Positions 7,609-31,485 of a stretch of 35,567 nt of DNA are shown in pieces. The stretch's first letter is position 1. Each line of letters starts with the position of its first letter. Source of the DNA: Ignavibacteriota bacterium (GTDB lineage: Bacteria; Bacteroidota; Ignavibacteria; Tepidaquicellales; Tepidaquicellaceae); contig JAPLFJ010000036.1 of the NCBI GenBank assembly GCA_026390735.1, forward strand, positions 1 through 35,567, in the 5' to 3' direction. Both the position numbers and the translations under genes were made by a program. The notes under the pieces are model-generated. The model saw only the letters and a list, made by a program, of their open reading frames with translations, did not search any database and had not been told where the DNA came from.

Positions 7609-7749
7609 TGTTAAGTAAATTAATACATATAGCTTTTAAACGATTTAATTACCGTTTATTAATTTCATCATATACCCCGTCTGTGATGTCTTTTTCTGTG
7701 TTGATTAATAAACAGAGAGTTGAATTAAACTTAAACGAAAGTATTGAGT

Positions 7750-10700
7750 ATGGGGTTTGGTTTTAAGAAAATTGTAGTTCTTATCATTATTGCATTCCTT
7801 TCACAGAATGTCTATTCTCAGCGGTATTTCACAAAAACTTACGATATCGAGAACGGCTTGCCTACAAGGATGGTCTATGACATATGCCAGGATACAACAG
7901 GACTTATCTGGCTTGCAACATACGAAGGAATAAGCTGTTACGACGGATTTAAGTTTATGAATTATAACGGCAAAGATGGTCTGCCGATTCAGAAATATAA
8001 AGGCATTAAATTAGACGAAAAAGGTATTATCTGGAGTATGCCTTCTTATGTGTACGACACAATGGTTTATTACAAAGACAATGCTTTTGTCAGGATTCCG
8101 CCGGCTGAAAAGAATGACCAGCTTTATGAGGCAAACAGTTTTGATATAATGTACGTGAATAATAAACCTGTTATCTGTATGGGCTGCAATAACGGTTTTT
8201 ATCTTTATGCAGATGATACGTGGAAGAAAATTCTTATATCTGAAATACCTGAGAAAAATGTTGTATCAAAGGTAATAGCAAACAAGGGTAAGTTTTATCT
8301 TTCAACAAGATTAGGCCTTTGTGTTCTTGAAAATGGAAATCCTGACTGGAACTTAAACGATAAATTAAAAGATTTATCAGGGAAGATGCTTACTATAGAA
8401 TTTGAGAATAAAGGAACTCCCAATGAAAAACTATGGGCTATGTCAACGGATTGTATTGGTTATTTTGAAAATGATAAGTTTATTGTATATAAAATTAATT
8501 TAACTATACCTGAATTCTCAAACGGCAATGCCGCTTTTATGTGTTTTCATAAAAGTAATAAAATATACTTTGGCAACAACTGGAAAAAGTATTATCTGGA
8601 CAGGAATATCTTAAAGGTCTTTCCGCTGATGGGTAACAACGGTTTCTCTTCCAACGGAGCTCTTTCGGTTTTTGTTGATAAGGAAGATGATGTATGGTTT
8701 ACAGATACAAGGGGACTCGATAAAATCGGTAAGACTTCTATAGTTAATTATTTCGAAATTAACGGGATGCTTGAGAATGAGGTCTCCGCTTTTATGGAAT
8801 TTAAAGACGGCACGTACCTGCTCGGACATAATAACGGACTGACAATTCTCAACAACGACAATAAATGCATGAGAATTCCGTTTAACTCAGGAAATCTCCA
8901 TTCCACCAGAGTTCTTGATATGTTAAGAGACAGGGACGGGGAGGTGTGGTTTACTGCTAATGAAATGGGTGTAGGAAAGATTAATCCTGACGGTAATATA
9001 AAATGGTATAACTATCAGGATAAGGCTACTTTTTCGTGCATTCAGCAGGATATAGAAGGAAGAATCTGGGTAGGAAGCAATTCTCTATATGGAAGTCATA
9101 ATACAATTTCCATATTAAAAGATAATAAGTTTGTTAAATATATACATTCGGATAAAGTTAACAATACTATAAGAAAAATATTTCCTTCGGATAAGGGAGG
9201 TGTATTCGTTGCGGGTATTAACGGTCTCTGGTATCTGGATGATAAAGACGCAAAAAAAATCCCTTCGCCTGAAGGGGGCAAATCTGAAAATGTTTATGCT
9301 TATTATAAGAACAAAGCAGGTACTGAATTCGTAGGTACATCGAACGGATTGTTTGTTATTGAAAATGGTAAGATTGTGAAGTACAATAAAAACGGCGTTA
9401 ACATCACAAGCCCGGTATATTTTATACTGCAGGACAGAGACGGAATTTACTGGCTGGGTTCAAATGACGGTGCTTTTAAATGGGACGGAGAAGGGAAACT
9501 GGAAGTCCTGAATACTCACAACGGACTTGCAGGACACGAGACTAACCGTGCTGCAGGTTTACTCGATTCCAGGGGAAGAGTATGGATTGGCACTGACCTT
9601 GGGCTGACTTGTTATATGCCGGAAAACAATCACATTAATATTCCTGTTCCTAAAATAATGCTTCTCGACCTCGAAGACAGTAAAGGTGTACAGTATTATC
9701 TTGACGAGAATAACTCTGTCCCATATGCCGATAATACACTTATTTTTAATTTCAGGGGAATCTCTTACGTCAATGAGGATCTGATAGTGTACCGGTATAA
9801 ACTCGAAGGCTACGATAAAGACTGGCAGGAAATAAAACAATCAATGCTCGATAAAGTAAAGTACATAGACGTTCGCCCGGGTGATTACAGATTCTCTGTA
9901 ATGGCAAAAAACTTTTCTGGTAAATGGAGTGAAGTCAGAACATCGGGTACTATTACAATTGATTTACCTTTCTATAAATCCTGGTGGTTTGTTATACTTG
10001 TATTTTTTCTGTTTGGAGGAACGGTTGCATTGTTCGTTAAGATAAAAGACCAGAAATATCAGAATACAAAACTTGAAAGTGAGATTGATAACAGGAAGAA
10101 AGTTGAACAGGAATTAACTGACAGTAAAAAGAAGTACCAGGACATAGTGGAACTTTTACCTGAATCTGTTTATGAAACTGACATCGAAGGCAACTTCACT
10201 TATGTTAACAGTTACGGTCTTAAACTTCTGGGTTTTACTCAGGAAGATCTTGAAAGAGGTGTGAAAATAGGAGAGGTAATCATAAACGGTGATTTAGACA
10301 GATTGCTTGAGAACAGGAAAAAAGTTTTTGAAACAAAGACTATAAACAGGTCTGAATATACGAGTATTTCAAAGAAAGGGAAAAAAGTATCGCTTAGCAT
10401 TAATGCCATTCCGATAATAAGCGGAGGCAAAGTTGTGGGTATAAGAGGTGTCGCAACTGATATGACTGAACAAAAGGCAGTTCAGGAAACACTGATTAAA
10501 TACGCAGATGAATTAAAAGCTCTGAATGCCAGTAAGGACAGATTCTTTTCTATAGTAGCGCACGACCTGAAGAATCCTTTCCAGGGTCTGCTTGGTTTCT
10601 CGGATTTCCTTCATACCGATTATGACAGTCTCACTGATGCCGAGAAAAAAGAATATATCGGTTACATAAGGACAACTTCAAGGAATGCTTACAACCTTCT

Positions 10701-11208
10701 CGATAATCTCCTGCAGTTGTCAAGACTTCAGACAGGAAGGATTGAAGTCGCACCTGTTCAACTGAACCTGTTTTCTGAAATAAATTCTGTTATAGGACTT
10801 TTTGCCTCGAATGCCATCAGAAAGAAAATATCACTGGTGAATAATGCTGATACAGGTGTCCTGATAGTAGCAGACAGCAATATGCTGAGTTCTGTTCTTC
10901 AGAATCTGATTTCCAATGCGATTAAGTTCAGCAAACTGAATGGTGAAATAATCATAGACAGTGAAACACGGGACGGGTTCGTTATCGTAAAAGTTACCGA
11001 CAACGGTGTTGGAATGAATAAAGATGCTGTAGACAAGTTGTTTAAAATAGATCAGCAGGTTTCAGCCATAGGAACTATGAACGAAACAGGTACAGGTCTG
11101 GGATTATTGTTATGCAGGGAAATGATTGAACTTAACGGAGGAAATATCAGCGTTGAAAGTGAAAAGGGGAAGGGAAGTACATTCATGTTCTCAATACCTG
11201 TGAAGTAA
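7750..11208 (+). CDS. Beta-propeller sensor histidine kinase (Reg_prop repeats, Y_Y_Y, PAS, HisKA, HATPase)
   Basis: This is a 1152-residue membrane sensor kinase. After a signal peptide (ending NVYSQ), two seven-bladed Reg_prop-type propellers fill about 25-640, with repeated 'D..G.iWlaT..Gi' motifs. A Y_Y_Y domain follows (about 650-735), then one transmembrane helix (about 743-765), a coiled linker, a PAS domain (about 794-905), HisKA with phospho-acceptor His938 in IVAHDLKNPF, and HATPase_c with NLISNAIKF (from 1052), DNGVGM (from 1084) and GTGLGLLLC. It resembles Bacteroides hybrid two-component sensors of glycan utilisation but has no receiver or AraC-type output domain, so it needs a separate response regulator, not present here. 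The ATG at 7750 is preferred over an in-frame TTG at 7744 because of spacing to GAAAG. Confidence 0.92.
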   Translation: MGFGFKKIVVLIIIAFLSQNVYSQRYFTKTYDIENGLPTRMVYDICQDTTGLIWLATYEGISCYDGFKFMNYNGKDGLPIQKYKGIKLDEKGIIWSMPSYVYDTMVYYKDNAFVRIPPAEKNDQLYEANSFDIMYVNNKPVICMGCNNGFYLYADDTWKKILISEIPEKNVVSKVIANKGKFYLSTRLGLCVLENGNPDWNLNDKLKDLSGKMLTIEFENKGTPNEKLWAMSTDCIGYFENDKFIVYKINLTIPEFSNGNAAFMCFHKSNKIYFGNNWKKYYLDRNILKVFPLMGNNGFSSNGALSVFVDKEDDVWFTDTRGLDKIGKTSIVNYFEINGMLENEVSAFMEFKDGTYLLGHNNGLTILNNDNKCMRIPFNSGNLHSTRVLDMLRDRDGEVWFTANEMGVGKINPDGNIKWYNYQDKATFSCIQQDIEGRIWVGSNSLYGSHNTISILKDNKFVKYIHSDKVNNTIRKIFPSDKGGVFVAGINGLWYLDDKDAKKIPSPEGGKSENVYAYYKNKAGTEFVGTSNGLFVIENGKIVKYNKNGVNITSPVYFILQDRDGIYWLGSNDGAFKWDGEGKLEVLNTHNGLAGHETNRAAGLLDSRGRVWIGTDLGLTCYMPENNHINIPVPKIMLLDLEDSKGVQYYLDENNSVPYADNTLIFNFRGISYVNEDLIVYRYKLEGYDKDWQEIKQSMLDKVKYIDVRPGDYRFSVMAKNFSGKWSEVRTSGTITIDLPFYKSWWFVILVFFLFGGTVALFVKIKDQKYQNTKLESEIDNRKKVEQELTDSKKKYQDIVELLPESVYETDIEGNFTYVNSYGLKLLGFTQEDLERGVKIGEVIINGDLDRLLENRKKVFETKTINRSEYTSISKKGKKVSLSINAIPIISGGKVVGIRGVATDMTEQKAVQETLIKYADELKALNASKDRFFSIVAHDLKNPFQGLLGFSDFLHTDYDSLTDAEKKEYIGYIRTTSRNAYNLLDNLLQLSRLQTGRIEVAPVQLNLFSEINSVIGLFASNAIRKKISLVNNADTGVLIVADSNMLSSVLQNLISNAIKFSKLNGEIIIDSETRDGFVIVKVTDNGVGMNKDAVDKLFKIDQQVSAIGTMNETGTGLGLLLCREMIELNGGNISVESEKGKGSTFMFSIPVK

Positions 11209-18690: not shown

Positions 18691-19857
18691 TTGATAAAGT
18701 ATGTTCTACATACAGCTGTATTAGTTATTGTATTTATATCATTGACATCAGTCCTGAATGCACAGGAAAATCTATCACTAAAAAATATTGATAACGAAAG
18801 CAAATCTTCAATAAGTCTCTCAAAGGGTTACACCAATGAAGTAATTATTCGAGACACTATCCCTCAGAGTAACTCTTATGATTTACTAAATAAAGGTTAT
18901 AATTACATTAACAGCAAGCAGTACAACGAAGCCATTTCAGTTTTTAACACTTATCTTAAAACAAACCCTAAAGATACAAAGATTCATATGCAGCTGGGTT
19001 ATTTATACGATGGAGTTAAAAAATATGCAAACTCTTACAGGAGTTTTGAGTACGTTGCAGACTATTCAACAAACCCCGACGAGATTGACAAGGCAAGAAC
19101 ATCGATGCATTACATGAAGGATTTAATGATAAAGAACTCTGTAACTTCATTCGACCTTTACTTCTACAATTTCTATGATTCATATTACGAAAACTACGTC
19201 GCAAATTTACTGACTCACATTAACGTAAGAGTCGCAAAAGGCATTTATATGGGGCCTTATATGGAGACGTACCTTGATTCAAAATCGAAACCTGATTATA
19301 TACTTAATGACAGATTCTTTGATATCGGCGGTTTTACAAAGTTTAATATAACTGACTGGATGAATTTTGAATTAAGAGTCGGTTACGTAAGGGAAATAGA
19401 TTTTAAGAGAAACAGTTTGAGCTTTAAACCTATTCTTTCAATGGGAACTAGGCTCGGAGAAGCATCCTTTTATAAAGACAGAAAAACAAATAAAACAGAA
19501 AATTTCTATTTCGATATTTATTCTTCAGGACTTTATGACTATAAATTCAGGAACGTATTCGGCGACCTGCTGACAAAAGAAGTTTTAAGATACCTTACAG
19601 GAGGATATTCTTACATAGAGTTTTACATTAAGCAGGAATTTGCTCTCGATACAAAGAAACTTGATTATAATAACTATGTCGACCTTGGTGCAGGTATTGC
19701 ATTTAAACCAAACCTGACTAACTTTCCGGTATTCTTTCTCGAAGGTTTAAACAGGAATTTTGTAATCGGTTCGACCGGTGAATATTTCTCAGGAGATATG
19801 AAGACTATATTCACTGTAAGGGCGGGATTCTTAATTTATTACAACGCAAAATTATGA
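18691..19857 (+). CDS. NfrA-like TPR and outer-membrane barrel protein of the glycan export operon
   Basis: This 388-residue protein has a signal peptide ending VLNAQ (about 1-24). Two TPR units (about 62-127, YDLLNKGYNYINSKQYNEAISVFNTYLKTNP and the next repeat, in spaced form) are followed by a C-terminal half of alternating aromatic strands (about 155-388) typical of an outer-membrane barrel. TPR plus barrel immediately before an NfrB-type synthase matches the role of NfrA, PgaA and BcsC: periplasmic scaffold and glycan exit pore. It is far shorter than E. coli NfrA. The start is TTG at 18691 with AAAGGG six bases upstream; no in-frame ATG competes. Its TGA overlaps the ATG of the next gene. 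The export role is inferred from architecture and neighbours. Confidence 0.7.
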   Translation: MIKYVLHTAVLVIVFISLTSVLNAQENLSLKNIDNESKSSISLSKGYTNEVIIRDTIPQSNSYDLLNKGYNYINSKQYNEAISVFNTYLKTNPKDTKIHMQLGYLYDGVKKYANSYRSFEYVADYSTNPDEIDKARTSMHYMKDLMIKNSVTSFDLYFYNFYDSYYENYVANLLTHINVRVAKGIYMGPYMETYLDSKSKPDYILNDRFFDIGGFTKFNITDWMNFELRVGYVREIDFKRNSLSFKPILSMGTRLGEASFYKDRKTNKTENFYFDIYSSGLYDYKFRNVFGDLLTKEVLRYLTGGYSYIEFYIKQEFALDTKKLDYNNYVDLGAGIAFKPNLTNFPVFFLEGLNRNFVIGSTGEYFSGDMKTIFTVRAGFLIYYNAKL

Positions 19858-21317
19858 TTTACGACATTTTCCAAATATTACTCTGGATTACCGCAATAAT
19901 GCTGTTCATCAGCGGAATAGATGATTTGTACCTCGATTTGTTATACTGGCTGCAGAGAAGAAAATACAAGAAGAAACTGCCTGATTTTTCGGAAATGTTC
20001 GATAAACCCGAGAAACCAATTGCTATTTTTCTTGGAGCGTGGAATGAATCTTCAGTAATCGGAAGAACACTCAGTTATGCGGTGAGAAATTTAAACTATG
20101 CTAACTACAGGTTTTTTATAGGATGCTATCCTAATGACCCTGAAACAATCAGAGTCGTTCAGGAACTCTCAAAGAAAGAACCGAGAATTATACCTTGTAT
20201 CAACAACCTTGACGGTCCTACAACAAAGGCAGATAATTTAAACACACTGTATGCAGGGTTAATTGAGTACGAAAAGCATTACGGAGTTTTTGACATTATA
20301 CTTGTTCATGATGCGGAAGATTTTATCCATCCGAACTCACTGAAGTTGTACAATTTCTTACTCGGTTATAAAGGATATCATGCAGTTCAGATACCTGTTA
20401 TACCTATTAAGAGCAAACTTGGCAAATTATTCCACAGAACTTATTGTGATGCGTTCGCAGAAGTGCATACAAAAGATATGATCGTACGCCAGGCGATGGG
20501 TACTTTTATTCCTTTCGCAGGTACAGGAATGGGATTCCACAGGAAAACATTCAATTATCTTGAGAAGTATAACTATGATGTTGAAATGGCAAAAGTAAAT
20601 AAATTTAGTGTTGATGATCCGTTCCACACAGAAGATACAGAAAAAGCAAATATCGAAAAAACTGAAGTTAAATTCAGCGAGGAAGATTTATCTTTCTACA
20701 ACGATGAAAGAATAAAAGGAAGCATCAACGTAAACGAGACAAGTTATCACGACGATCCGTTCTCAAGTCTGAACGACTATCAGCTTCAGGGCGGTAAGAG
20801 GGTACCGGATTCGGTAAAAGGCTATACTTTCATGTTCCTTGCTATGGTACTCGGATGGATTTCTTTCCTTGTGTACGCAGGTCAGACTGATGCACAGCAG
20901 AATGCAATAACAACAACCGATATAATTGAAAAGATAAGTTTTGCACCAAGTGATGCTAATGCCAAGAATAACGATAAAAACGGAATTATTAATAAGAACG
21001 AATTAGCAAATTCGAAAGAGATTAAAGACGGTATAATAAGTTTAAGCAATGGTTTCTCCGACAAGAAGTATAATGTCTTCTATTCAAAGAACAAGGAAAA
21101 GGAATTTACAATACAGGAGTCCACCTGGATTTCCGAATTGTCAGCAAAGAACAGAGTTGAAGTTTTAAAAAGTACAGGGATATTCAGAAACAAAGAAATC
21201 CGTGTACAGCCGGTCATTATAAATAACGAGACTGTTTACCGCGTAAACATTTCGAATTATGATAATATAGATGAAGCAAGGGATGACGTTGCCAAGTTTA
21301 AGAAACCGGTTCAATAA
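19854..21317 (+). CDS. nfrB: N-terminal half of an NfrB-type GT2 glycosyltransferase fused to a TM segment and SPOR domain
   Basis: This 487-residue protein begins with a membrane anchor (about 5-20) and an IDDLYLDLLYWLQRR segment characteristic of NfrB. The donor-binding half of a family-2 glycosyltransferase follows: GAWNE (61-65), YPNDPET, GPTTKADNLN (121-130), the metal-binding VHDAEDF (151-157) and GTGMGFHRK (223-231). At about residue 248, where intact NfrB enzymes proceed to the TED motif, the sequence turns into an acidic linker with two DDPF motifs (254-303), a transmembrane helix (324-343) and a SPOR-type domain (about 417-485; peptidoglycan-binding in other proteins). TED and QxxRW are missing here and found in the next gene. 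The topology puts the GT half in the cytoplasm and SPOR in the periplasm. Start overlaps the NfrA-like stop. Confidence 0.85.
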   Translation: MIYDIFQILLWITAIMLFISGIDDLYLDLLYWLQRRKYKKKLPDFSEMFDKPEKPIAIFLGAWNESSVIGRTLSYAVRNLNYANYRFFIGCYPNDPETIRVVQELSKKEPRIIPCINNLDGPTTKADNLNTLYAGLIEYEKHYGVFDIILVHDAEDFIHPNSLKLYNFLLGYKGYHAVQIPVIPIKSKLGKLFHRTYCDAFAEVHTKDMIVRQAMGTFIPFAGTGMGFHRKTFNYLEKYNYDVEMAKVNKFSVDDPFHTEDTEKANIEKTEVKFSEEDLSFYNDERIKGSINVNETSYHDDPFSSLNDYQLQGGKRVPDSVKGYTFMFLAMVLGWISFLVYAGQTDAQQNAITTTDIIEKISFAPSDANAKNNDKNGIINKNELANSKEIKDGIISLSNGFSDKKYNVFYSKNKEKEFTIQESTWISELSAKNRVEVLKSTGIFRNKEIRVQPVIINNETVYRVNISNYDNIDEARDDVAKFKKPVQ

Positions 21318-21348
21318 AAGTTTAAATCAGAAAGGGTAAATTAATTAT

Positions 21349-22740
21349 ATGAGTTCAGCAGAAAACCAGGATGTCTTTCACGATAAAGATGATTATTCAA
21401 AGGGTAACCTGAATAATTCACAGTCTATCGATGATAAGATAAAGGAAATAGAAAACAGGATTCGTAATCTTTACGAGAATAAAATTCCTGAGTTCCTTAA
21501 TGTTAATACTGAAACTAAGGAAGGTGCTTTCAATCTGAGAGAAAAACTCGAAGGTGTTAATGAAAACATTAAACAGTTTTCAACTGATTTAAAGACAACT
21601 TCTCCTGAATTAAAGGTAAAGGCAGAAGTTAAAAAGGAAGCACTTGTCGGAAGTATCAGCCAGGCAGCAGAAGATCATGCTCATCAGGAAAGTCTTTCAA
21701 AAACACTCGACGAACTTGAGGAAAAGATAAGTAATTTAAACAGTTTGTCCACCTCTGATGACCTTACAGCTACAGATAAGAAATTTGATGATAAAGTAAA
21801 TGATGCAGTAAAGAAACTTGAAGATAAGATTGAATCCAGGGATAATGATTTACACAAGAAACTTTTTGACAGTTTCTACGAAGAGACAGCAAAGCCCGAA
21901 GTAAAAGAAAATGTTGTTAAGGATAAATTAGAAAGAATTGATGAACAGATAAAGGATATAAAGAGCAGTATTTCTTCTTTATACACAGACCAGAAGGTTG
22001 TGAGTTCATCCGCCGTTGAAGGCAGATTAAAGAATATTGAAGAAAAGTTAGACGATGAAAAGCCGCAGTTAAAAGCAGTGCCGCACGGAGCCATAACTCT
22101 CCGTCCGAAAGAGAAAAAAGAAGGTTTGTTCAACGATGCCAACCTTACTGAGGATTATGAACTTGGTTTCAGATTCTATCAGCTTGGTTTTAAAACAGGA
22201 TTCTTCAACGTTAAACTTGATAAAGATGATGAAGCATCGAGAATCGCAACAGCAGAATTCTTCCCTAATACTTTCTGGTCATCGGTTAAACAAAGGTCAA
22301 GATGGGTAGCAGGTATCGTATTCCAGAACTGGAAAGCCCACAAATGGGCAGGGAACACTTCAACGAAGTACTTCCTATTCAGGGACAGAAAATCTATTTT
22401 CAGTTTTGTAAGTGCATTCCTTTCAAACGTTGTGATAATGTATTTCCTTTATTCGATTGCTGCCAAAGTATTAAACTGGCCTCACGTAACATCGCTCGTA
22501 GGACACAGTTCTGTATTATGGTGGTTAATGATTGCAAATCTGTTCTTTATGATTTCAAGATTATCGCACAGGTTTGTTTTTACATACAACTGGTACGGCT
22601 TTAAGTATGCGTTCTTCAGTATCTTCAGGCTTCCGCTCGATACTATTATCAACTTCTTTGCTATCGCAAGGTCGGTAAACGTTTACAAGAATACCAAATC
22701 AAAAACAAAAGCGGTCTGGGATTCTACGGCTCATTATTAA
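21349..22740 (+). CDS. nfrB: Coiled-coil protein fused to the C-terminal half of an NfrB-type GT2 glycosyltransferase
   Basis: This 463-residue protein starts with about 255 residues of charged, heptad-like coiled coil (IKEIENRIRNLYEN, LSKTLDELEEKISNL, KLERIDEQIKDIKSS and more). From about 259 it is the missing half of the preceding glycosyltransferase: NLTEDYELGFRFYQLG (TED at 267-269), FFPNTFWSSVKQRSRW with the QxxRW motif at 315-319, then VFQNWKAHKW and three to four membrane helices (about 349-375, 389-406, 418-440). The C-terminal MshEN-type c-di-GMP-binding domain of E. coli NfrB is absent; the protein ends after VWDSTAHY. It has its own ATG with AGAAAGGGTAA upstream, 31 bases after the first half's stop, so it is translated independently. 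Confidence 0.85.
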   Translation: MSSAENQDVFHDKDDYSKGNLNNSQSIDDKIKEIENRIRNLYENKIPEFLNVNTETKEGAFNLREKLEGVNENIKQFSTDLKTTSPELKVKAEVKKEALVGSISQAAEDHAHQESLSKTLDELEEKISNLNSLSTSDDLTATDKKFDDKVNDAVKKLEDKIESRDNDLHKKLFDSFYEETAKPEVKENVVKDKLERIDEQIKDIKSSISSLYTDQKVVSSSAVEGRLKNIEEKLDDEKPQLKAVPHGAITLRPKEKKEGLFNDANLTEDYELGFRFYQLGFKTGFFNVKLDKDDEASRIATAEFFPNTFWSSVKQRSRWVAGIVFQNWKAHKWAGNTSTKYFLFRDRKSIFSFVSAFLSNVVIMYFLYSIAAKVLNWPHVTSLVGHSSVLWWLMIANLFFMISRLSHRFVFTYNWYGFKYAFFSIFRLPLDTIINFFAIARSVNVYKNTKSKTKAVWDSTAHY

Positions 22741-22800
22741 CATGTAAGAATAAAACAAAGTTTTTAAAATTTTATAAATAAAGGTAACAATAACATATAA

Positions 22801-23931
22801 ATGGCGAATAAGAAGAACATATTAATCGTGTTAGGAACAAGACCGGAGATAATAAAACTGTTCGTTTTATACCGTGAATTGAAAAAGTCAGATGAGTTTA
22901 ATCCGATATTGTTCAATTCAGCACAGCAGACAATTTCAGGTGATATACTCTCATACCTCGATTTAAAGTTTGATATGACGGCAGAAGAAATTCCGAACAG
23001 AGGCGCAGACCTTGAACTATTCGTAGCCCATTTATTGCAGGATTTAAACAGACAGTTCGTTAAAGCAGAATCAGGACTGAAGGCATCTGATATTTCAGGT
23101 GTTGTAGTCCAGGGGGATACAGCTTCTGCATACACAGGTGCAGTATGGGGTTTCCTGAACCAGATTCCTGTGTTTCACGTGGAAGCAGGGTTAAGGACTT
23201 TCGATCAGTTGAATCCGTTCCCGGAAGAATTCTTCAGGGAATCTATCGGCAGAGTATCGAGTTTGAACTTTTGTCCGACAGAAATCAGTCACGGCAATCT
23301 GCTCAGAGAGGGAATCAGCAAAGACAAGTGTTTTATCGTTGGTAATACAATCAACGATGCAATAGTAACATTACTGAACGAAAACAAGATTACAGAATAT
23401 CCTGAAAAGGATTATATATTAAGTACTTTACACAGAAGGGAAAACTGGGATAAAGTAGAAGAGTATTCTTCAATATTGAACAGGTTATTGAAAGAAAACA
23501 AAACAGGAAGGAAGATTGTACATCTTCTTCATCCTAATCCCGCAATCAGAAAAAGTTTTGCCGCGGGTCTTGAGGGCGGAACACACGAGAACCTGGTTAT
23601 CAGCGATCCCGTGAATGATTATTTCCAGATGCTTGGAATGGTCAGGAATGCACACACAGTGATTTCTGATTCAGGTGGCCTGCAGGAAGAAACACTTTTC
23701 TTTAACATTCCTTGCGGAATAATGAGAAAAGTAACCGAAAGACCGGAATGTCTGGATAAGAACGCAAAGTTATTAAACTTTGATTATAATGAGGTGTCAG
23801 GTTTTATAGATTACGCTGAATATTACAGGAACAACGTTGAAAAGGAATTTGATTATACATTCGGGTATGGTGACACGAGTGTAAAAATCTATGAATTATT
23901 AAAAAAATACTTTAAAAACAAAACATATTAA
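22801..23931 (+). CDS. wecB: UDP-N-acetylglucosamine 2-epimerase, non-hydrolysing (WecB type)
   Basis: This enzyme interconverts UDP-GlcNAc and UDP-ManNAc in the cytoplasm. At 376 residues it is full length, with GTRPEIIK (12-19), VQGDT (Asp106), HVEAGLRT (Glu128), NPFPEEFFR (Glu142), VGNTINDA, STLHRRENW (His211), HPNP, SDSGGLQEE and TERPEC, covering the positions of the E. coli catalytic residues Asp95, Glu117, Glu131 and His213. The usual AQH motif near the N-terminus reads AQQ (41-43), close to the region that binds allosteric UDP-GlcNAc in Bacillus homologues. Placed 60 bases after the split NfrB, it likely supplies UDP-ManNAc as the substrate, as WecB does for the E. coli NfrA/NfrB glycan. 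Confidence 0.93.
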   Translation: MANKKNILIVLGTRPEIIKLFVLYRELKKSDEFNPILFNSAQQTISGDILSYLDLKFDMTAEEIPNRGADLELFVAHLLQDLNRQFVKAESGLKASDISGVVVQGDTASAYTGAVWGFLNQIPVFHVEAGLRTFDQLNPFPEEFFRESIGRVSSLNFCPTEISHGNLLREGISKDKCFIVGNTINDAIVTLLNENKITEYPEKDYILSTLHRRENWDKVEEYSSILNRLLKENKTGRKIVHLLHPNPAIRKSFAAGLEGGTHENLVISDPVNDYFQMLGMVRNAHTVISDSGGLQEETLFFNIPCGIMRKVTERPECLDKNAKLLNFDYNEVSGFIDYAEYYRNNVEKEFDYTFGYGDTSVKIYELLKKYFKNKTY

Positions 23932-23934
23932 TTG

Positions 23935-25983
23935 ATGAAAAGCAAAATTAAAATCTACACTTTCATTATTGCTGCTTTGCTGGTTGCGTCCTTTGTTGGT
24001 TCAACCTTTGCACAGGATTTTGTGAAGCACAGCAGAACCGAAAGTTACAGAATGCCGCAGTTGCCGAATCTGATACAGATTCTCGATGCGAAACATAATG
24101 TGGTCAGGGACAATCCTTTGAGCACAATCAAGCAGGACTTCTTCCTTAAATTAAGGGATAGCGTCCAACTTGATGCTTCAAAGTTTTATCCTAACGTAGC
24201 AAACCCGTACTTACCAAACGGATATCCGGTCGTGATTATGGTACACGGCTACGGTGACAGAAAAGAAACTCTTGAAAACTTTGCGCAGGCGCAGGCAAAT
24301 TATGGTTATGTAGTCTATACCTTCAGTGTCCGCGGTCAGGGAAATTCAGGCGGTCTTTCAAACCTTATCAGCAGAACTGAAGCACAGGATTTAATTGAAT
24401 TTGTAAATTATGTAAAGAAAGATAAACCTGTTACAGGCGGTGACACAGCAAACGTATTGATAATGGGCGGTTCACAGGGAGGAATGCTTCCTTATATGGC
24501 AGCAAGCATGGGAATGAATGTTCGTGCAATCATTTCAGCAGTCGCTTCTCCTGAATTCGCTTCAAGCTGGATTGAAAACGGTTCGATTAAGATGTCTTTA
24601 TTATGGACAATTGAATATACACCTGACACTGCAAGGTACAATGCACAGGTCGACAGAATGTCAACATGGGTTTATTCTAATTCAAGAGATAAATGGGATT
24701 CTCTTGCAAAGTATCTTCCTTTAAACAGAGATTTTAATACAATTGTAGCAAATAACAAAGTTCCTATCGTTCTTGAAAATTCATGGCAGGATATGTTCTT
24801 CAATTGCCTTGGAAACATTAACGGCATTCCTTTAATGACAGCTCCTTCACGTTATTATTTCGGAGCAGTTACGGGTCACGGCGGCGATACATCACCTACG
24901 GAAGATACCTGGCATATGAATTTCTTTAATGAATGGTTCTTATACTGGCTGTTCCCAAGTACATATTATCCGGACCTTGGTAATCTGCTTACACGTCCGA
25001 AGTTTCACTATGCGTCCACGACTTTCCCTGTAAACGGAAATATGTGGTCTTTTAAACACGACAGTTCAGCCGTATTTCCACCGGCAGGGTCAACTACGAT
25101 GAGACTTTATTTCAACACAAACAAGAAACTGCTTAAGACAGTCAACTCAAATCAGTCCCAGACGAATACTTTAACGAATACTATTAAAGGTTCGTACACG
25201 ATGACTCAGATAGTTGCGGATGAATTCAAGGGCTCAAGATTTACAACAAACTTTAAGAAAGACTCAACAATATTTGAATCGAATGTTCTTCCGACAAGTA
25301 TGAAAATGTTCGGAACACCGAACCTGAAACTTGATTATATGTCGAATGCAATAGTTTCGCAGATGAACTACCAGATATATGAAGTCAGCAGCACAGGTGT
25401 TGCAAAACTTGTATCAACAATCAACTATACTGACAGAAAAGCAACAGTAAATTCACGCAAACAGGTTACAATAAAAGGAAATTCACACGCACATATTTTC
25501 TCAGCAGGAAGCAAGATAAGAGTTATTATGACTAACCTTGACCAGCGCTGGAATTATGCTTTCCTTAACACAAATCCGTTTGTTCTGCCTGTAATGACAA
25601 ACTTTACAAACACTATGTACTTAAGTTCAAACTCATACATAGACTTCCCGATTATCGGAGCAGCACCATTCAGTCCGCTTGCATCGATGGAAGATGGCGG
25701 AGCAGTTACAGCAATAAAGTTTGAATTAACACAGAACTATCCGAATCCGTTCAACCCGACAACTAACATTAAGTTCTCACTGCCTGAGAGTTTTGCAGGA
25801 AACGTGATGCTTAAAGTGTTCGACATAACGGGTAAAGAAGTTGCAACTTTAGTGAATCAAAAGATGAACGCAGGTTTCCATTCGGTTGCTTTCGACGGTT
25901 CAAAACTTTCCAGTGGAATATACTTCTACAAAATATCAGCAGGAAGTTATTCAGACGTAAAGAAAATGACATTAATAAAATAA
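23935..25983 (+). CDS. Secreted alpha/beta hydrolase (CocE/X-Pro dipeptidase-like) with type IX sorting domain
   Basis: This 682-residue protein has a signal peptide ending GSTFAQ (about 1-27). The alpha/beta-hydrolase fold is clear: VVIMVHGYGDRKET (oxyanion region, about 99-112), VYTFSVRGQGNSGG, nucleophile Ser180 in MGGSQGGM and a likely catalytic His in TGHGGD. A jelly-roll-like C-terminal domain follows (about 370-590; the KIRVIMTNLD segment resembles X-Pro dipeptidyl-peptidase/CocE C-domains), then a sorting domain from LTQNYPNPFNP ending KKMTLIK. ATG at 23935 is preferred to the adjacent TTG at 23932. It starts 3 bases after the epimerase stop, so it belongs to the same operon; an extracellular role on the exported glycan (for example de-esterification) is inference. 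Peptidase or esterase activity cannot be decided. Confidence 0.8.
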   Translation: MKSKIKIYTFIIAALLVASFVGSTFAQDFVKHSRTESYRMPQLPNLIQILDAKHNVVRDNPLSTIKQDFFLKLRDSVQLDASKFYPNVANPYLPNGYPVVIMVHGYGDRKETLENFAQAQANYGYVVYTFSVRGQGNSGGLSNLISRTEAQDLIEFVNYVKKDKPVTGGDTANVLIMGGSQGGMLPYMAASMGMNVRAIISAVASPEFASSWIENGSIKMSLLWTIEYTPDTARYNAQVDRMSTWVYSNSRDKWDSLAKYLPLNRDFNTIVANNKVPIVLENSWQDMFFNCLGNINGIPLMTAPSRYYFGAVTGHGGDTSPTEDTWHMNFFNEWFLYWLFPSTYYPDLGNLLTRPKFHYASTTFPVNGNMWSFKHDSSAVFPPAGSTTMRLYFNTNKKLLKTVNSNQSQTNTLTNTIKGSYTMTQIVADEFKGSRFTTNFKKDSTIFESNVLPTSMKMFGTPNLKLDYMSNAIVSQMNYQIYEVSSTGVAKLVSTINYTDRKATVNSRKQVTIKGNSHAHIFSAGSKIRVIMTNLDQRWNYAFLNTNPFVLPVMTNFTNTMYLSSNSYIDFPIIGAAPFSPLASMEDGGAVTAIKFELTQNYPNPFNPTTNIKFSLPESFAGNVMLKVFDITGKEVATLVNQKMNAGFHSVAFDGSKLSSGIYFYKISAGSYSDVKKMTLIK

Positions 25984-27455: not shown

Positions 27456-28676
27456 ATGAAAAAACTGATTGTAATTTTATTGATGCTCACAGCAATGAGC
27501 GTAAATGCACAGTGGTTGAATATGAATTCACCTGTGAGCAGGATTAATGGAATAACCAGCATTAATAATAATATTTTTATTACCTCTATGGGATATGGTG
27601 TTTTGACTTCAGGCAATGGAGGTGTTAACTGGACATCGGTAAACAACGGACTTCCAACTTTATACACATATTGCATTACTGCCTCCGCAAATAATTTGTT
27701 CGTATCGTCTACAGGAAATACTCCGGAAGTATATTTATCAACAAACCTTGGTGCAAACTGGACTTTGGCAAACAGCGGATTATCTTCAGGATTAAATTCA
27801 TTGTTTGCTTCTGCCTCATATGTCTACGCGGGTAATTCATCAGGTGCTTATTACTCCACTAATAACGGAGCTAACTGGATTCTGTCAAACCTCACGGGGG
27901 TTACACCAATGTCGTTTGTCAAATCCGGAAGCGTACTTTTTGCAGGGACATTTGGGAACGGTGTGTATAAATCGACAGATAACGGATTTAACTGGATTAA
28001 CTGCAGCAGCGGGCTTACAACTCTGAACATTAATACACTCGGAGTGCTTGGGACTGATATTTTTGCAGGGACAAATTACGGTGGAGCTATGTACAAGACC
28101 ACTAATAACGGAGCAAGCTGGACAGAAGCTAACAGCGGTATAATGCATTTAGTAATCAGAAGTATTGCTTCACAAGGAGGTCACATTTTTGCTACTGCAA
28201 ACGATTCTTACGGATGTATTTACCATTCCACAAATGCCGGGCAGAACTGGATTACAAAGAATCAGGGTTTTGGTTACACTGTACCGAATTTTACGTATCT
28301 GTATATTACGAATGACTATGTTTATGCAGGGACTTATTCAAGTAATATCTGGAAACGTTCTTATCAGGATTTAATAGGTATTCAGAAAATATCAGAAGTT
28401 GTTCCGTCATCATATTCACTCAGTCAGAACTATCCTAATCCGTTTAATCCTTCAACCGTTATCCGTTGTCAGTTGCCAGTTGTCAGTAATGTATCTTTAA
28501 AAGTATACGACGTAATGGGTCGGGAAGTGCAAACACTGGTAAGCGAAAAATTGCAGGCAGGGAGTTATGAGGTGAAGTTTGATGCAGGTATGAGTGGTTT
28601 GACAAGCGGGGTGTATTTTTATAAGATGGGGACGGAGGGTTATAGTGAAACGAAAAGGATGTTGTTAATAAAATAA
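27456..28676 (+). CDS. Secreted YCF48/BNR-type beta-propeller with type IX sorting domain
   Basis: This 406-residue protein has a signal peptide (MKKLIVILLMLTAMSVNAQ). At least six propeller blades carry the motif S/T-T-N-x-G-x-N/S-W, for example STNLGANW, STNNGANW, STDNGFNW, TTNNGASW and STNAGQNW, between about 40 and 300. A sorting domain runs from about 322 (SLSQNYPNPFNP) to the end (KRMLLIK). Such propellers usually bind or scaffold rather than catalyse. The 3' end runs straight into a palindromic repeat element. The sorting domain is closely similar to those of the next two genes, suggesting recent shuffling or gene conversion among them. Confidence 0.85.
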   Translation: MKKLIVILLMLTAMSVNAQWLNMNSPVSRINGITSINNNIFITSMGYGVLTSGNGGVNWTSVNNGLPTLYTYCITASANNLFVSSTGNTPEVYLSTNLGANWTLANSGLSSGLNSLFASASYVYAGNSSGAYYSTNNGANWILSNLTGVTPMSFVKSGSVLFAGTFGNGVYKSTDNGFNWINCSSGLTTLNINTLGVLGTDIFAGTNYGGAMYKTTNNGASWTEANSGIMHLVIRSIASQGGHIFATANDSYGCIYHSTNAGQNWITKNQGFGYTVPNFTYLYITNDYVYAGTYSSNIWKRSYQDLIGIQKISEVVPSSYSLSQNYPNPFNPSTVIRCQLPVVSNVSLKVYDVMGREVQTLVSEKLQAGSYEVKFDAGMSGLTSGVYFYKMGTEGYSETKRMLLIK

Positions 28677-28685
28677 AAGGTACCC

Positions 28686-28731
28686 ACCCCGTCTGTCTGC
28701 TGAAGCAGACAGACACCCCTCCAAGGAGGGG
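28686..28731. repeat. REP-like double palindrome
   Basis: Two adjacent perfect hairpins: GTCTGTCTGC (28691-28700) with GCAGACAGAC (28705-28714), and CCCCTCC (28716-28722) with GGAGGGG (28725-28731). The GC content is far above the surroundings. The CACCCCTCCAAGGAGGGG-type core is like repetitive extragenic palindromes I recall in Bacteroidota and Ignavibacteria genomes. It starts 10 bases past a stop codon and may also slow or stop transcription, although the T run is weak. Confidence 0.7.
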
Positions 28732-28878
28732 ATTCTTTGATGGTGAGGGAATTGATACAGTGTGATGAAGAGGATAAAGTTGATAAAATAGTATGAATGT
28801 TGAGAAAAATAATATAAATTATTATTCAATAATCACATATAATTTTGTGATTAGTATAAAAATATAAATTATTGCATT

Positions 28879-31398
28879 ATGAAAAAGTTAATCGTTCTTA
28901 TCGCGGTTTTCATCTTTCTTACGGCAGAAGTGAAATCACAGTTAGTTTATTATCAATGGAATCCTGTCAGCAGCCCCGTGACAGCAAACCTGAATTCGAT
29001 ATATTTTTCAAATTCACTTATTGTATCGGGAAATTCCGGTACGGTATTGTATTCAGGTAATTCAGGTGCTAACTGGTCTGCTTCAATACAGGCTGCAGGT
29101 GTAAACCTGTACTCGGTTTTCGGTTCCACGCCTTTTATTACAGGAGCCTCTGGGACTATATTAAAGTCTGCAGACAACGGGCTGAACTGGAGTACAGTAA
29201 CTTCACCGACGTCTAATAACATAAATTCTGTTAATGCTTATGTCTCTCCGAACTACAGGATTATAGTTTGTGACGGAGGAAAGATTTACACGTCTACCAA
29301 TCTTGGAACGAACTGGAGTGAAGTGGCATCAGGAACTACGAACTCACTTAGATGCGTGAATTTTAGTACTTCTACATCGATTTACCGTGGTTATGTATGC
29401 GGTGATAACGGTACGTTTATAAAGCTGGTTTATGCATTGCCTGTACCACCATCGGTAACGGTTCTGCCATACAGTACTGGAGTTACGAATAATTTTTACG
29501 GAGTTGCCTCACTGGGCGATACTACTAACCTGATACTTGTCGGTTCGGGCGGAAAGATAATGAAGTCAACGAACGGCGGAGTAAGCTGGACATCACTGGT
29601 CAGCGGAACCACTAACACATTAAGGTTTGTAAATGCAGTATCTGCAAATGATGTATGGGCTGGTGGTGACAATGGTACAATGCTTCACACAACTAACGGT
29701 GGAACAAACTGGCTTCCGCAGGTTGTCGGGTCTGCGGCGAACATAAATGCAATGACTTTTATTTCGGGTTCAAAAGCAATTGCTGTGGGAAGCAGCGGAA
29801 CGATTCTGGAATGTTATTTACCTGGTACGACGAGCGATTCAACAGTAAACAGAGTAACGCTTAATGGCAACAACATTAGTTCAATATTTCAGAACACAGG
29901 TATATTCAATCAGAATACTACATCGGGAAATACTGCTGGTTTTGAATGGCCAAAAGGCTCAGGAAGAACAGCAATGTTTACGTCAGGGCTGAGCATTTCT
30001 GCTATGGTAAACGGAAACCTTCGTCAGGCAATGTGTACATATAAAGGTGAGTACAGAAAAGGACAGTTCGTTAACGGTACGCCTCAGATTCCTATTGCTT
30101 TAAATAAAATCTGGAAAGTTTCTGCGGGTGACAATTGCTACAACAGCATAGACTGGGCTAACTGGGGGATGATTGTTCCTTATGGTGCACCATACCGCGA
30201 TATGAATAATAACGGCCAGTATGATCCTTGCATAGACATACCCGGAATGCGGAATGCAACACAGACAATATTTATGGCACTTACAGATGGTTTTCCTTCG
30301 AGTCACTCTCCCGGAGAGGGTTTCGGAGGTGGTACATTACCACTTAATGCTGACTTGAAAATCACTGCTTATACATACCCGGATTCAGCGCTTGCAGATG
30401 TACAATTTATAAAGTATGATTTAATAAACAGAGGCTCAGTTGCCTGGAACAATGTGTATATGGCATTAACAGGTGACTTTGATTTAGGAGATGCAAATGA
30501 TGATTATTATGCAAGTGATTCAGTGCGAAATATGTGGATAGGGTATAACGGTGATAATATGGATGGAAACGGAAATCCGCCAACGTACGGAGCAAATCCT
30601 CCAGCAACCGGGATGAGAATACTGAAGTTTCCTGTGAATAAAACACTAACACCTTTTGATACAATACGTACACATGCAGGAATTTACTTTACAGGAAATG
30701 GAAATTATACTCCGCCTTGTGAAACAGACCCTAACGGAGAGCCCCTGGGTGCATACAATTTTATGAAAGGATTTAAGAAAGACGGTTCTAAATGGATGAA
30801 TCCGATGTTTACTCCACCGAGACCTGTGAAATTTATTTACACAGGGGAACCTGAACCTAATACAGGATGGACTGAGTTGAAAGGTTCTATCTGGAACTGC
30901 GGCGGTGATACAGGGACGTATCATCCGGTTAACGCACCAACTGACAGAAGATACCTTCTGGGTTTTGGAAAAGATAACTTTACTATGAATCCCGGTGATT
31001 CTCAAACAATAGTTGTTGCTCAGATGATTGCTCGCGGAACGAGCAACGTTAACTCAGTAACAAAACTTAAACAACTCTCTGATATAGTTGCTAACTATAC
31101 AGTAGGCATTAAACAAATAAATTCTTTCGTACCGGGTTTTTATTCTCTTTCTCAGAACTATCCAAATCCGTTCAACCCGACAACAGTTATCCGCTATCAA
31201 TTGTCAGTTTCAGGAAATACTTCATTAAAAGTCTATGACGTAATGGGAAGGGAAGTGCAGACACTCGTGAACGAAAGATTACAGCCCGGCACTTATGAAG
31301 TTACGTTTGACGGAAGTAATTTAACCAGCGGCGTTTATTTCTATCAGCTGGCATCGGGTGATTACAAAGAAACAAAGAAATTATTGCTTTTGAAATAA
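28879..31398 (+). CDS. Secreted YCF48-type propeller plus paralogous C-terminal domain, type IX sorting (paralogue 1)
   Basis: This 839-residue protein has a signal peptide ending AEVKSQ. A YCF48-like propeller fills about 25-310 (SGNSGANW, SADNGLNW, STNLGTNW, STNGGVSW, TTNGGTNW). A conserved domain follows (about 325-740), beginning NRVTLNGNNISSIFQNTGIFNQ and including TSGNTAGFEWPKGSGRTAMF, YGAPYRDMNNNGQYDP (a calcium-loop-like DxNxNG at 441), TDGFPSSHSPGEGFGGG and LTGDFDLGDANDDYY. A sorting domain (about 752-839) ends TKKLLLLK. The middle domain is shared with the two following genes; I do not know its function. A TAATTTTG at 28840-28847 may be a promoter -7 element. Confidence 0.85.
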   Translation: MKKLIVLIAVFIFLTAEVKSQLVYYQWNPVSSPVTANLNSIYFSNSLIVSGNSGTVLYSGNSGANWSASIQAAGVNLYSVFGSTPFITGASGTILKSADNGLNWSTVTSPTSNNINSVNAYVSPNYRIIVCDGGKIYTSTNLGTNWSEVASGTTNSLRCVNFSTSTSIYRGYVCGDNGTFIKLVYALPVPPSVTVLPYSTGVTNNFYGVASLGDTTNLILVGSGGKIMKSTNGGVSWTSLVSGTTNTLRFVNAVSANDVWAGGDNGTMLHTTNGGTNWLPQVVGSAANINAMTFISGSKAIAVGSSGTILECYLPGTTSDSTVNRVTLNGNNISSIFQNTGIFNQNTTSGNTAGFEWPKGSGRTAMFTSGLSISAMVNGNLRQAMCTYKGEYRKGQFVNGTPQIPIALNKIWKVSAGDNCYNSIDWANWGMIVPYGAPYRDMNNNGQYDPCIDIPGMRNATQTIFMALTDGFPSSHSPGEGFGGGTLPLNADLKITAYTYPDSALADVQFIKYDLINRGSVAWNNVYMALTGDFDLGDANDDYYASDSVRNMWIGYNGDNMDGNGNPPTYGANPPATGMRILKFPVNKTLTPFDTIRTHAGIYFTGNGNYTPPCETDPNGEPLGAYNFMKGFKKDGSKWMNPMFTPPRPVKFIYTGEPEPNTGWTELKGSIWNCGGDTGTYHPVNAPTDRRYLLGFGKDNFTMNPGDSQTIVVAQMIARGTSNVNSVTKLKQLSDIVANYTVGIKQINSFVPGFYSLSQNYPNPFNPTTVIRYQLSVSGNTSLKVYDVMGREVQTLVNERLQPGTYEVTFDGSNLTSGVYFYQLASGDYKETKKLLLLK

Positions 31399-31410
31399 TC
31401 TTTTATCCGT

Positions 31411-31434
31411 ATTCCCGGGGGTAACCCCGGGAAT
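31411..31434. repeat. Perfect 10-bp palindrome with GTAA loop
   Basis: ATTCCCGGGG (31411-31420) pairs with CCCCGGGAAT (31425-31434). It is a GC-rich island in AT-rich sequence 12 bases past a stop codon, with no T run on either side. It may be a REP-type element or a 3'-end stabiliser. Confidence 0.65.
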
Positions 31435-31485
31435 GGGATGAATAATCATAAGTGTTTTTTGCAATGATATTAAGTAATTTATAGT

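Follow-up and report, generated by a model that had tools for sequence, protein, structure and literature searches.

A putative NfrB-type polysaccharide synthase made as two polypeptides in a family of Ignavibacteria

Can the catalytic domain of a polysaccharide synthase be divided between two genes and still form one enzyme? The question is raised by a stretch of 35,567 nucleotides from an Ignavibacteriota bacterium of the Tepidaquicellaceae (contig JAPLFJ010000036.1, positions 1 to 35,567 of the forward strand, GenBank assembly GCA_026390735.1), hereafter the window. Two consecutive genes in it, gene 1 (19854..21317, 487 aa) and gene 2 (21349..22740, 463 aa), match the two halves of NfrB. 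The parts of two studies that concern the E. coli protein describe it as a glycosyltransferase family 2 (GT2) synthase of the N4 glycan receptor system that is activated by cyclic di-GMP and has NfrA and WecB as partners (PMC8669469, PMC8669472). Our reading, to which we give a probability of roughly 0.8, is that gene 1 and gene 2 each encode one chain of a single putative GT2 polysaccharide synthase of the NfrB type, most likely with its origin in an IS5 insertion. The split itself is a conserved trait, neither decay nor misassembly. The features of the gene cluster at 18691..23931 given below lie on the forward strand.

An NfrB core divided between two genes

Gene 1 encodes the N-terminal half of a GT-A catalytic domain followed by a linker, a transmembrane (TM) helix and a SPOR-like tail, and gene 2 encodes a helical extension followed by the C-terminal half of the glycosyltransferase (GT) domain and a C-terminal membrane region. 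On the NCBIfam model for NfrB, NF008411, residues 1-245 of gene 1 (19854..20588) cover model positions 9-246 with 190.6 bits, and residues 259-463 of gene 2 (22123..22737) cover positions 249-470 with 135.6 bits; the alignment gives the same division. Neither gene yields a full-length NfrB match on one polypeptide, for which the whole-protein cut-off is 1170 bits. Since the model is covered by two consecutive parts, the core has no missing or doubled stretch, and GT2 Pfam families match both proteins. The original prediction, made from the letters of this DNA, had held that the two halves placed end to end rebuild an NfrB core and that the GT2 motifs are divided between them, and it was right on both points. 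A hydrophobic helix at residues 1-19 (hydropathy), GAWNE and the metal-binding motif HDAED (residues 152-156, 20307..20321) are on gene 1; TED (residues 267-269, 22147..22155), QRSRW (residues 315-319, 22291..22305) and the C-terminal membrane region are on gene 2.

In the alignment to E. coli NfrB (reference NC_000913.3), D153 of gene 1 falls on D169, and D269 and W319 of gene 2 fall on D267 and W330, respectively. E. coli NfrB variants at these three positions did not restore plating of phage N4 in the mutant assays that the relevant part of PMC8669469 describes. Among the split proteins HD[AS]E is conserved in 22/22 first halves and Q[RK]SRW in 21/21 second halves, while TED is conserved in 20/21, the remaining one being a frameshifted fragment without that column.

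Distribution of the split form

A profile built from five one-piece enzymes was compared to 294 genomes sampled from the window's class. Up to five candidates per genome were scored in this census, and a separate scan of the window's family scored every candidate. NfrB was found in 43 of the 294 genomes, 14 with the split form only, 29 with the one-piece form only and none with both. All 14 split genomes, the window's own included, belong to the window's family, where they represent eight genera and make up most of the NfrB-bearing genomes; of the one-piece genomes two belong to that family, 15 to a second family of the same order and 12 are found elsewhere in the class. Split genomes match the profile in two open frames, at about 1-245 and 235-444, with pieces missing in cases broken by contig ends or frameshifts. 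A single open frame covers the profile in the 29 one-piece genomes, one of them truncated at a contig end. An identical cut in an identical place in 14 genomes is not a matter of chance.

Named relatives, mostly labelled Ignavibacteria or Ignavibacteriae, were sorted by script into 52 loci, 32 of which are one-piece and 20 split-type (loci are designated L and genomes G). Both halves are present as separate frames on one stretch at 15 split-type loci; four others are truncated at contig ends, and L096 is without the first half. Outside the Ignavibacteria-labelled group, 16 named loci have both halves in one open reading frame (ORF), L143 with a partial first half. No split was found outside the window's class in a phylum sample of 395 genomes, five of which have NfrB, all from the window's class.

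It had been proposed that the same split be sought in related genomes, and that either a misassembly or an intact nfrB elsewhere in the genome would speak against a functional split. The split is present in 14 genomes of eight genera and, as separate ORFs, on 15 named stretches, which argues against the former. As for the latter, no intact nfrB was found in the window's genome (97% complete, every candidate scored), which has two split loci, or in the other 13 split genomes (all family candidates scored).

Origin of the split

In a tree of both halves with 31 rows, from which G008b was excluded as its second half is broken, the 21 split rows lie on one side of a branch (support 92/91), corresponding to a single transition between the two forms; how the two one-piece Ignavibacteria groups branch is uncertain (82/62). 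The split thus most likely arose once, with moderate support. Second copies of the split locus (C1, L062, in the window's genome, and those of relatives) nest within the split clade, which makes the duplication younger than the split and means that both copies remained split.

The front of gene 2 in relatives points to how the cut was made. The N-terminal domain of an IS5-family transposase (IS, insertion sequence) heads 10 of the 21 gene 2 proteins that have a complete start. When eight gene 2 proteins were scanned with Pfam, DUF772 scored above its cut-off in L078, L081 and L073 and below it in L074, and no DDE family was reported in any of the eight; a scan of genomes placed DUF772 above cut-off at gene 2 of G006, G007, G008, G017 and G021. 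For each of the six N-termini tested the best NCBIfam family was an IS5 transposase, with scores of 22-34 bits that, as expected of a fragment, are far under the whole-protein cut-off of 140; in L081 this match extends over model positions 2-125 of 285. Searching 29 genomes of the family with the first 167 aa of L078 gene 2 returned one 174-aa ORF besides gene 2 of ten split loci, one of these being the query itself.

A profile of the ten N-termini has matches in 25 of the 294 class genomes, nine of these in the window's family. Outside the family, 12 of its 18 matches fall in ORFs of 334-376 aa, and the four of these ORFs that were checked carry DUF772 together with DDE_Tnp_1. Gene 2 of L073 aligns from its residue 5 with the transposase L165 from residue 6 (31% identity, E 3e-21 in a single pairwise comparison), so that the start of this gene 2 is in effect a transposase start. 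In a profile comparison, the ten-N-terminus profile matches L165 with a probability of 99.3 over 127 columns. The domain is found in each main split line: in G006, in G014/G017/G007/G021, and in G008, G011 and G023 of the large line.

As the transposase domain is spread across the main split lines and stands at the start of gene 2, an IS5-type insertion is the likeliest history; the domain is seen in relatives, and we infer from it that such an insertion caused the split. The window's genus probably lost the transposase domain later and retained the helical region behind it. One-piece Ignavibacteria enzymes have at the split position a loop of 19 residues, or of 58 in genus g16 (21 pattern-matched rows, duplicates included), and the loop therefore tolerates growth. 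The g16 enzymes, L087 8982-10439 and L088 9211-10668, have this longer loop where the split of their family lies.

Two polypeptides could also have arisen by tandem duplication followed by complementary loss, or by recombination with a transposase gene. In favour of these routes, TM-SPOR is not known to be a component of IS5 elements. A search of the window for IS ends gave two inverted pairs only, neither of which flanks the insert; no tandem repeats were found there. Against them, a transposase N-domain stands at the start of gene 2 in every main split line, and the gene 2 of L073 runs from the transposase's own start. We regard them as an unlikely source of the two-chain enzyme, but one to be kept in view.

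Constraint on the two halves

In five locus pairs the nonsynonymous distance (dN) was 0.018-0.047 for the first half and 0.016-0.053 for the second, while the synonymous distance (dS) was at least 1.2 or too high to compute, and dN/dS ratios are rough because dS is saturated. The tails evolve faster than the GT halves: the closest pair, G000a-G004a, gives 0.14 and 0.18, and G001b-G003b gives values of up to 0.58. Distances of the first and second halves are correlated over 20 split loci (r 0.94), as expected if the genes are inherited together. Low dN in the first and second halves alike, together with the persistence of the split in both copies after duplication, argues for a working, if putative, two-chain enzyme.

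The same data bear on the possibility that nfrB was broken by an insertion and decayed, its pieces being remnants or serving another role. The fast change of the tails and the frameshifts in both G008 copies would agree with this. Decay is nonetheless very unlikely: the catalytic motifs are intact wherever their column is present, dN of the GT halves is far under dS, the split was maintained over eight genera and through duplication, and an nfrA-like gene still adjoins gene 1 at 15 loci.

The junction and the tails

In the window gene 1 and gene 2 are in different frames and are separated by 31 nt, in which AAGGGTAA, a ribosome-site-like sequence, is located 5' of gene 2 (21332..21339). The gap is 6-60 nt in the 17 loci where it was read. 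In all 17 a stop ends gene 1 and gene 2 starts separately, in agreement with the start of its own that had been predicted for gene 2, and in 8/17 the gap contains AAGGGTAA. These features make it highly improbable that a single chain is restored by frameshifting, readthrough or a split intein. A first half with an insert and an insert with a second half is also the layout of a split intein, and the two genes share a frame in 6/15 named single-stretch pairs; the frames differ, however, in the window and in 9/15 of these pairs, and the stop is there in every gap read. No intein (Hint) family is among the reported Pfam matches, although a very divergent intein could escape. An assembly or binning artefact is in keeping with assemblies that are draft or metagenome only, but its probability is negligible given that the identical cut occurs in 14 genomes, in G017 on a 1.17-Mb contig, and also in 15 named stretches that come from several projects.

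About the segment between the core halves, the original prediction was largely correct. Its linker, TM helix and gene 2 extension are present. Of the 21 gene 1 proteins that are intact, 20 have the second hydrophobic helix (residues 325-343 in the window, 20826..20882; hydropathy), and in the alignment 16/21 have the linker motif Y-x-[DE]-[DN]-P-F. The SPOR domain that it also claimed (residues 430-483, 21141..21302) reaches 17.6 bits in the window, below the Pfam cut-off of 21; across the family, 12/21 gene 1 proteins match SPOR at E ≤ 0.01, the best of them at 2e-8. The gene 2 extension (21349..22122) is rich in charged residues and has the predicted length of about 255 residues; it includes the motifs IENRIRNLYE (21448-21477) and LFDSFY (21862-21879), and the label coiled coil given to it is fair but unproven. 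In ten relatives the IS5 transposase N-domain precedes the corresponding region.

The tails of G006 take a form of their own. L073 10117-12891 encodes a 924-aa gene 2 protein whose extension is acidic (31% Asp/Glu) and very long, and its partner is a gene 1 without the second TM helix.

Neighbouring genes

Gene 1 is preceded by an NfrA-like gene (18691..19857), whose final 4 bases overlap the gene 1 start. It encodes a TPR protein with a presumed outer-membrane part; the TPR matches in Pfam are weak, and the name NfrA is given by position and TPR only, with no family match behind it. Gene 2 is followed by a gene for a UDP-GlcNAc 2-epimerase (WecB/NfrC-like; 22801..23931; PF02350, E 2e-62). An nfrA-like gene adjoins gene 1 at 15 split loci and is also found directly upstream of nfrB in one-piece relatives; none was detected at L067 or at the second-copy loci L062, L063, L069, L071 and L079. 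A wecB-like gene is located 3' of gene 2 at ten loci, contig-broken ones counted (blastp E ≤ 1e-4). As wecB is missing beside some loci, the complete cluster of nfrA, gene 1, gene 2 and wecB is common but not universal.

Upstream of the second split locus, at L062 5247-6752, a 501-aa ORF without a Pfam match at E ≤ 0.0001 occupies the place that the NfrA-like gene has in the window, and no wecB match was found in the 17 kb covered there. Elsewhere in the window, 7744-11208 encodes a sensor-kinase-like protein of 1154 aa (Reg_prop propeller, Y_Y_Y, PAS, HisKA and HATPase in Pfam). The cluster is followed, at 23932-25983 and 27456-34002, by genes for one alpha/beta hydrolase-like and three BNR/PSII_BNR-type proteins, each of which ends in a type IX secretion sorting domain.

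Discussion

How might two such polypeptides work as one enzyme? Gene 1 would contribute the half of the GT-A fold that binds nucleotide sugar and metal, along with the N-terminal membrane helix, and gene 2 would give TED, QRSRW and the C-terminal membrane helices; the two chains may then pack against each other in the inner membrane and form the active site. The cluster of NfrA-like gene, gene 1, gene 2 and WecB-like gene suggests polymerisation of UDP-N-acetylmannosamine and export of the product, probably a sugar polymer of the cell surface, by analogy with the proposal for E. coli NfrA/NfrB/WecB. As to the origin, an IS5-type element may have inserted in the loop before TED, so that the start and N-terminal domain of its transposase became the front of the orphaned second half. 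The DDE part would have been lost, and in some lineages the N-domain later as well, and the first half would have acquired a TM tail, with SPOR in 12/21. The helical extension of gene 2 and the linker motif of gene 1 are candidate docking parts, and SPOR, if periplasmic, could bind peptidoglycan and thereby place the enzyme; a role of the tails in docking the halves and positioning the enzyme is probable, though a guess. A fuller picture, in which a tamed IS5 insertion left the first half with a membrane-spanning, often cell-wall-binding tail and the meeting of the two chains controls where and when polymer is made, is tentative and in our estimate somewhat short of an even chance.

Several observations weigh against the two-chain enzyme of IS5 origin. 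The split genomes are all unclosed (4-680 contigs, 77-99% complete) and the named split-type records are all metagenome-assembled genomes. Support for a single origin is moderate, and dS is saturated. The transposase domain is missing in 11/21 complete-start gene 2 proteins, those of the window's genus included, and DUF772 was not reported in four of the eight gene 2 proteins scanned (L080, L084, L085 and L076). The tails are not uniform: SPOR was unmatched in 9/21 gene 1 proteins, the second TM helix is absent in 1/21, that of G006, and the search for a source of the TM-SPOR tail gave nothing beyond other ORFs with weak matches to SPOR alone. At blastp E ≤ 1e-4, wecB was not seen at the second-copy loci, or in the 6-9 kb covered around the loci of G006, of G014 and of G011 (its window-type copy).

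Two genomes add to these points. Both split loci of G008, L075 and L076, are frameshifted into extra frames by assembly error or decay, the breaks being in the nfrA-like gene and gene 2 of L075 and in gene 1 and gene 2 of L076. In G009, L096 4059-6618 (G009:C129, also L077) is a gene 2 without a GT first half alongside. The 368-aa ORF ahead of it has a helical motif like that of gene 2, a TM helix and SPOR, and no GT first half; in this genome a first half sits on a different contig. The second half of L096 may be an orphan or a case of module shuffling.

Structure prediction weighs on the same side. The models did not establish the assembly of the two proteins, for which the original prediction had proposed a structure prediction of the complex: AlphaFold2 models were obtained for the gene pairs of two relatives only, read through their stops and with split-type rows alone in the alignment, and had low confidence (predicted local distance difference test, pLDDT, 49.5 and 57.1; predicted template modelling score, pTM, 0.36 and 0.34). 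Within the otherwise low-confidence model of L097, the region corresponding to SPOR has a pLDDT of about 76-90. This model matches the hyaluronan synthase 8snc over 327 residues (model 5-1081, Z 11.7, root mean square deviation, rmsd, 6.0) and PcManGT 6yv7 over 301 residues (model 4-1077, Z 13.6, rmsd 7.5); given how weak the model is, matches spanning both halves are only a hint and no proof of assembly. No SPOR or transposase structures are among the matches listed, and as GT domains fill those rows their absence speaks neither for nor against such a domain. A sequence search of solved structures with the one-piece profile gave no match at E ≤ 0.001.

The reaction and the enzyme family are known. 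With E. coli NfrB the locus shares membrane helices and a GT core in which DxD, TED and QxxRW are present; the TPR protein upstream and the epimerase downstream are candidate counterparts of its partners NfrA and WecB. In contrast to the two polypeptides of the window, E. coli NfrB is one polypeptide, and it has a C-terminal MshEN domain, a family not among the Pfam matches at E ≤ 1 of either gene 1 or gene 2. The closest one-piece homologues are NfrB-like enzymes of other Ignavibacteria (444-485 aa), which in the first half are 53-60% identical to the window's enzyme but are uninterrupted, with 19 or 58 residues at the split position.

Glycosyltransferases whose active site is formed by two polypeptides include Alg13/Alg14 and the bacterial EpsF/EpsE type, all of the GT-B fold. 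These are cut between two domains, whereas the enzyme of the window is divided within its GT2 catalytic domain, with the metal motif on one side of the cut and TED on the other. For Alg13/Alg14, the part of PMC8993221 that concerns it places the active site between N- and C-terminal domains on two chains. A GT-B enzyme of this kind, with one domain per chain, was considered for gene 1 and gene 2 and rejected, as GT2 Pfam families are found on both.

Plant cellulose synthases tolerate a large insertion in the same GT2 interval, the class-specific region between DCD and TED, in one chain that is not split. In BcsA, TED starts the moving finger helix; the cut just before TED thus places the gene 2 extension where catalysis could be influenced.

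No published case of a split GT2 was found in the open-access papers searched. What appears new is that a GT2 catalytic domain is split internally, that this split is conserved and that it carries a transposase fossil. If the reading is true, GT2 synthases can work as two-chain enzymes in which the metal motif is kept apart from TED and QxxRW, and the pair would be a natural split enzyme for assembly-controlled polymer synthesis. The likeness to IS5-family transposases is confined to DUF772 at the front of gene 2, in 10/21 complete-start proteins; here, in contrast to a transposase, no DDE domain was found and the N-domain is fused to a glycosyltransferase half. No matching case of IS-driven gene fission or of a captured transposase was seen among the open-access papers listed. 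The locus would be a bacterial case in which a transposon insertion has apparently yielded a stable two-subunit enzyme, with the fossil of that insertion still readable in relatives.

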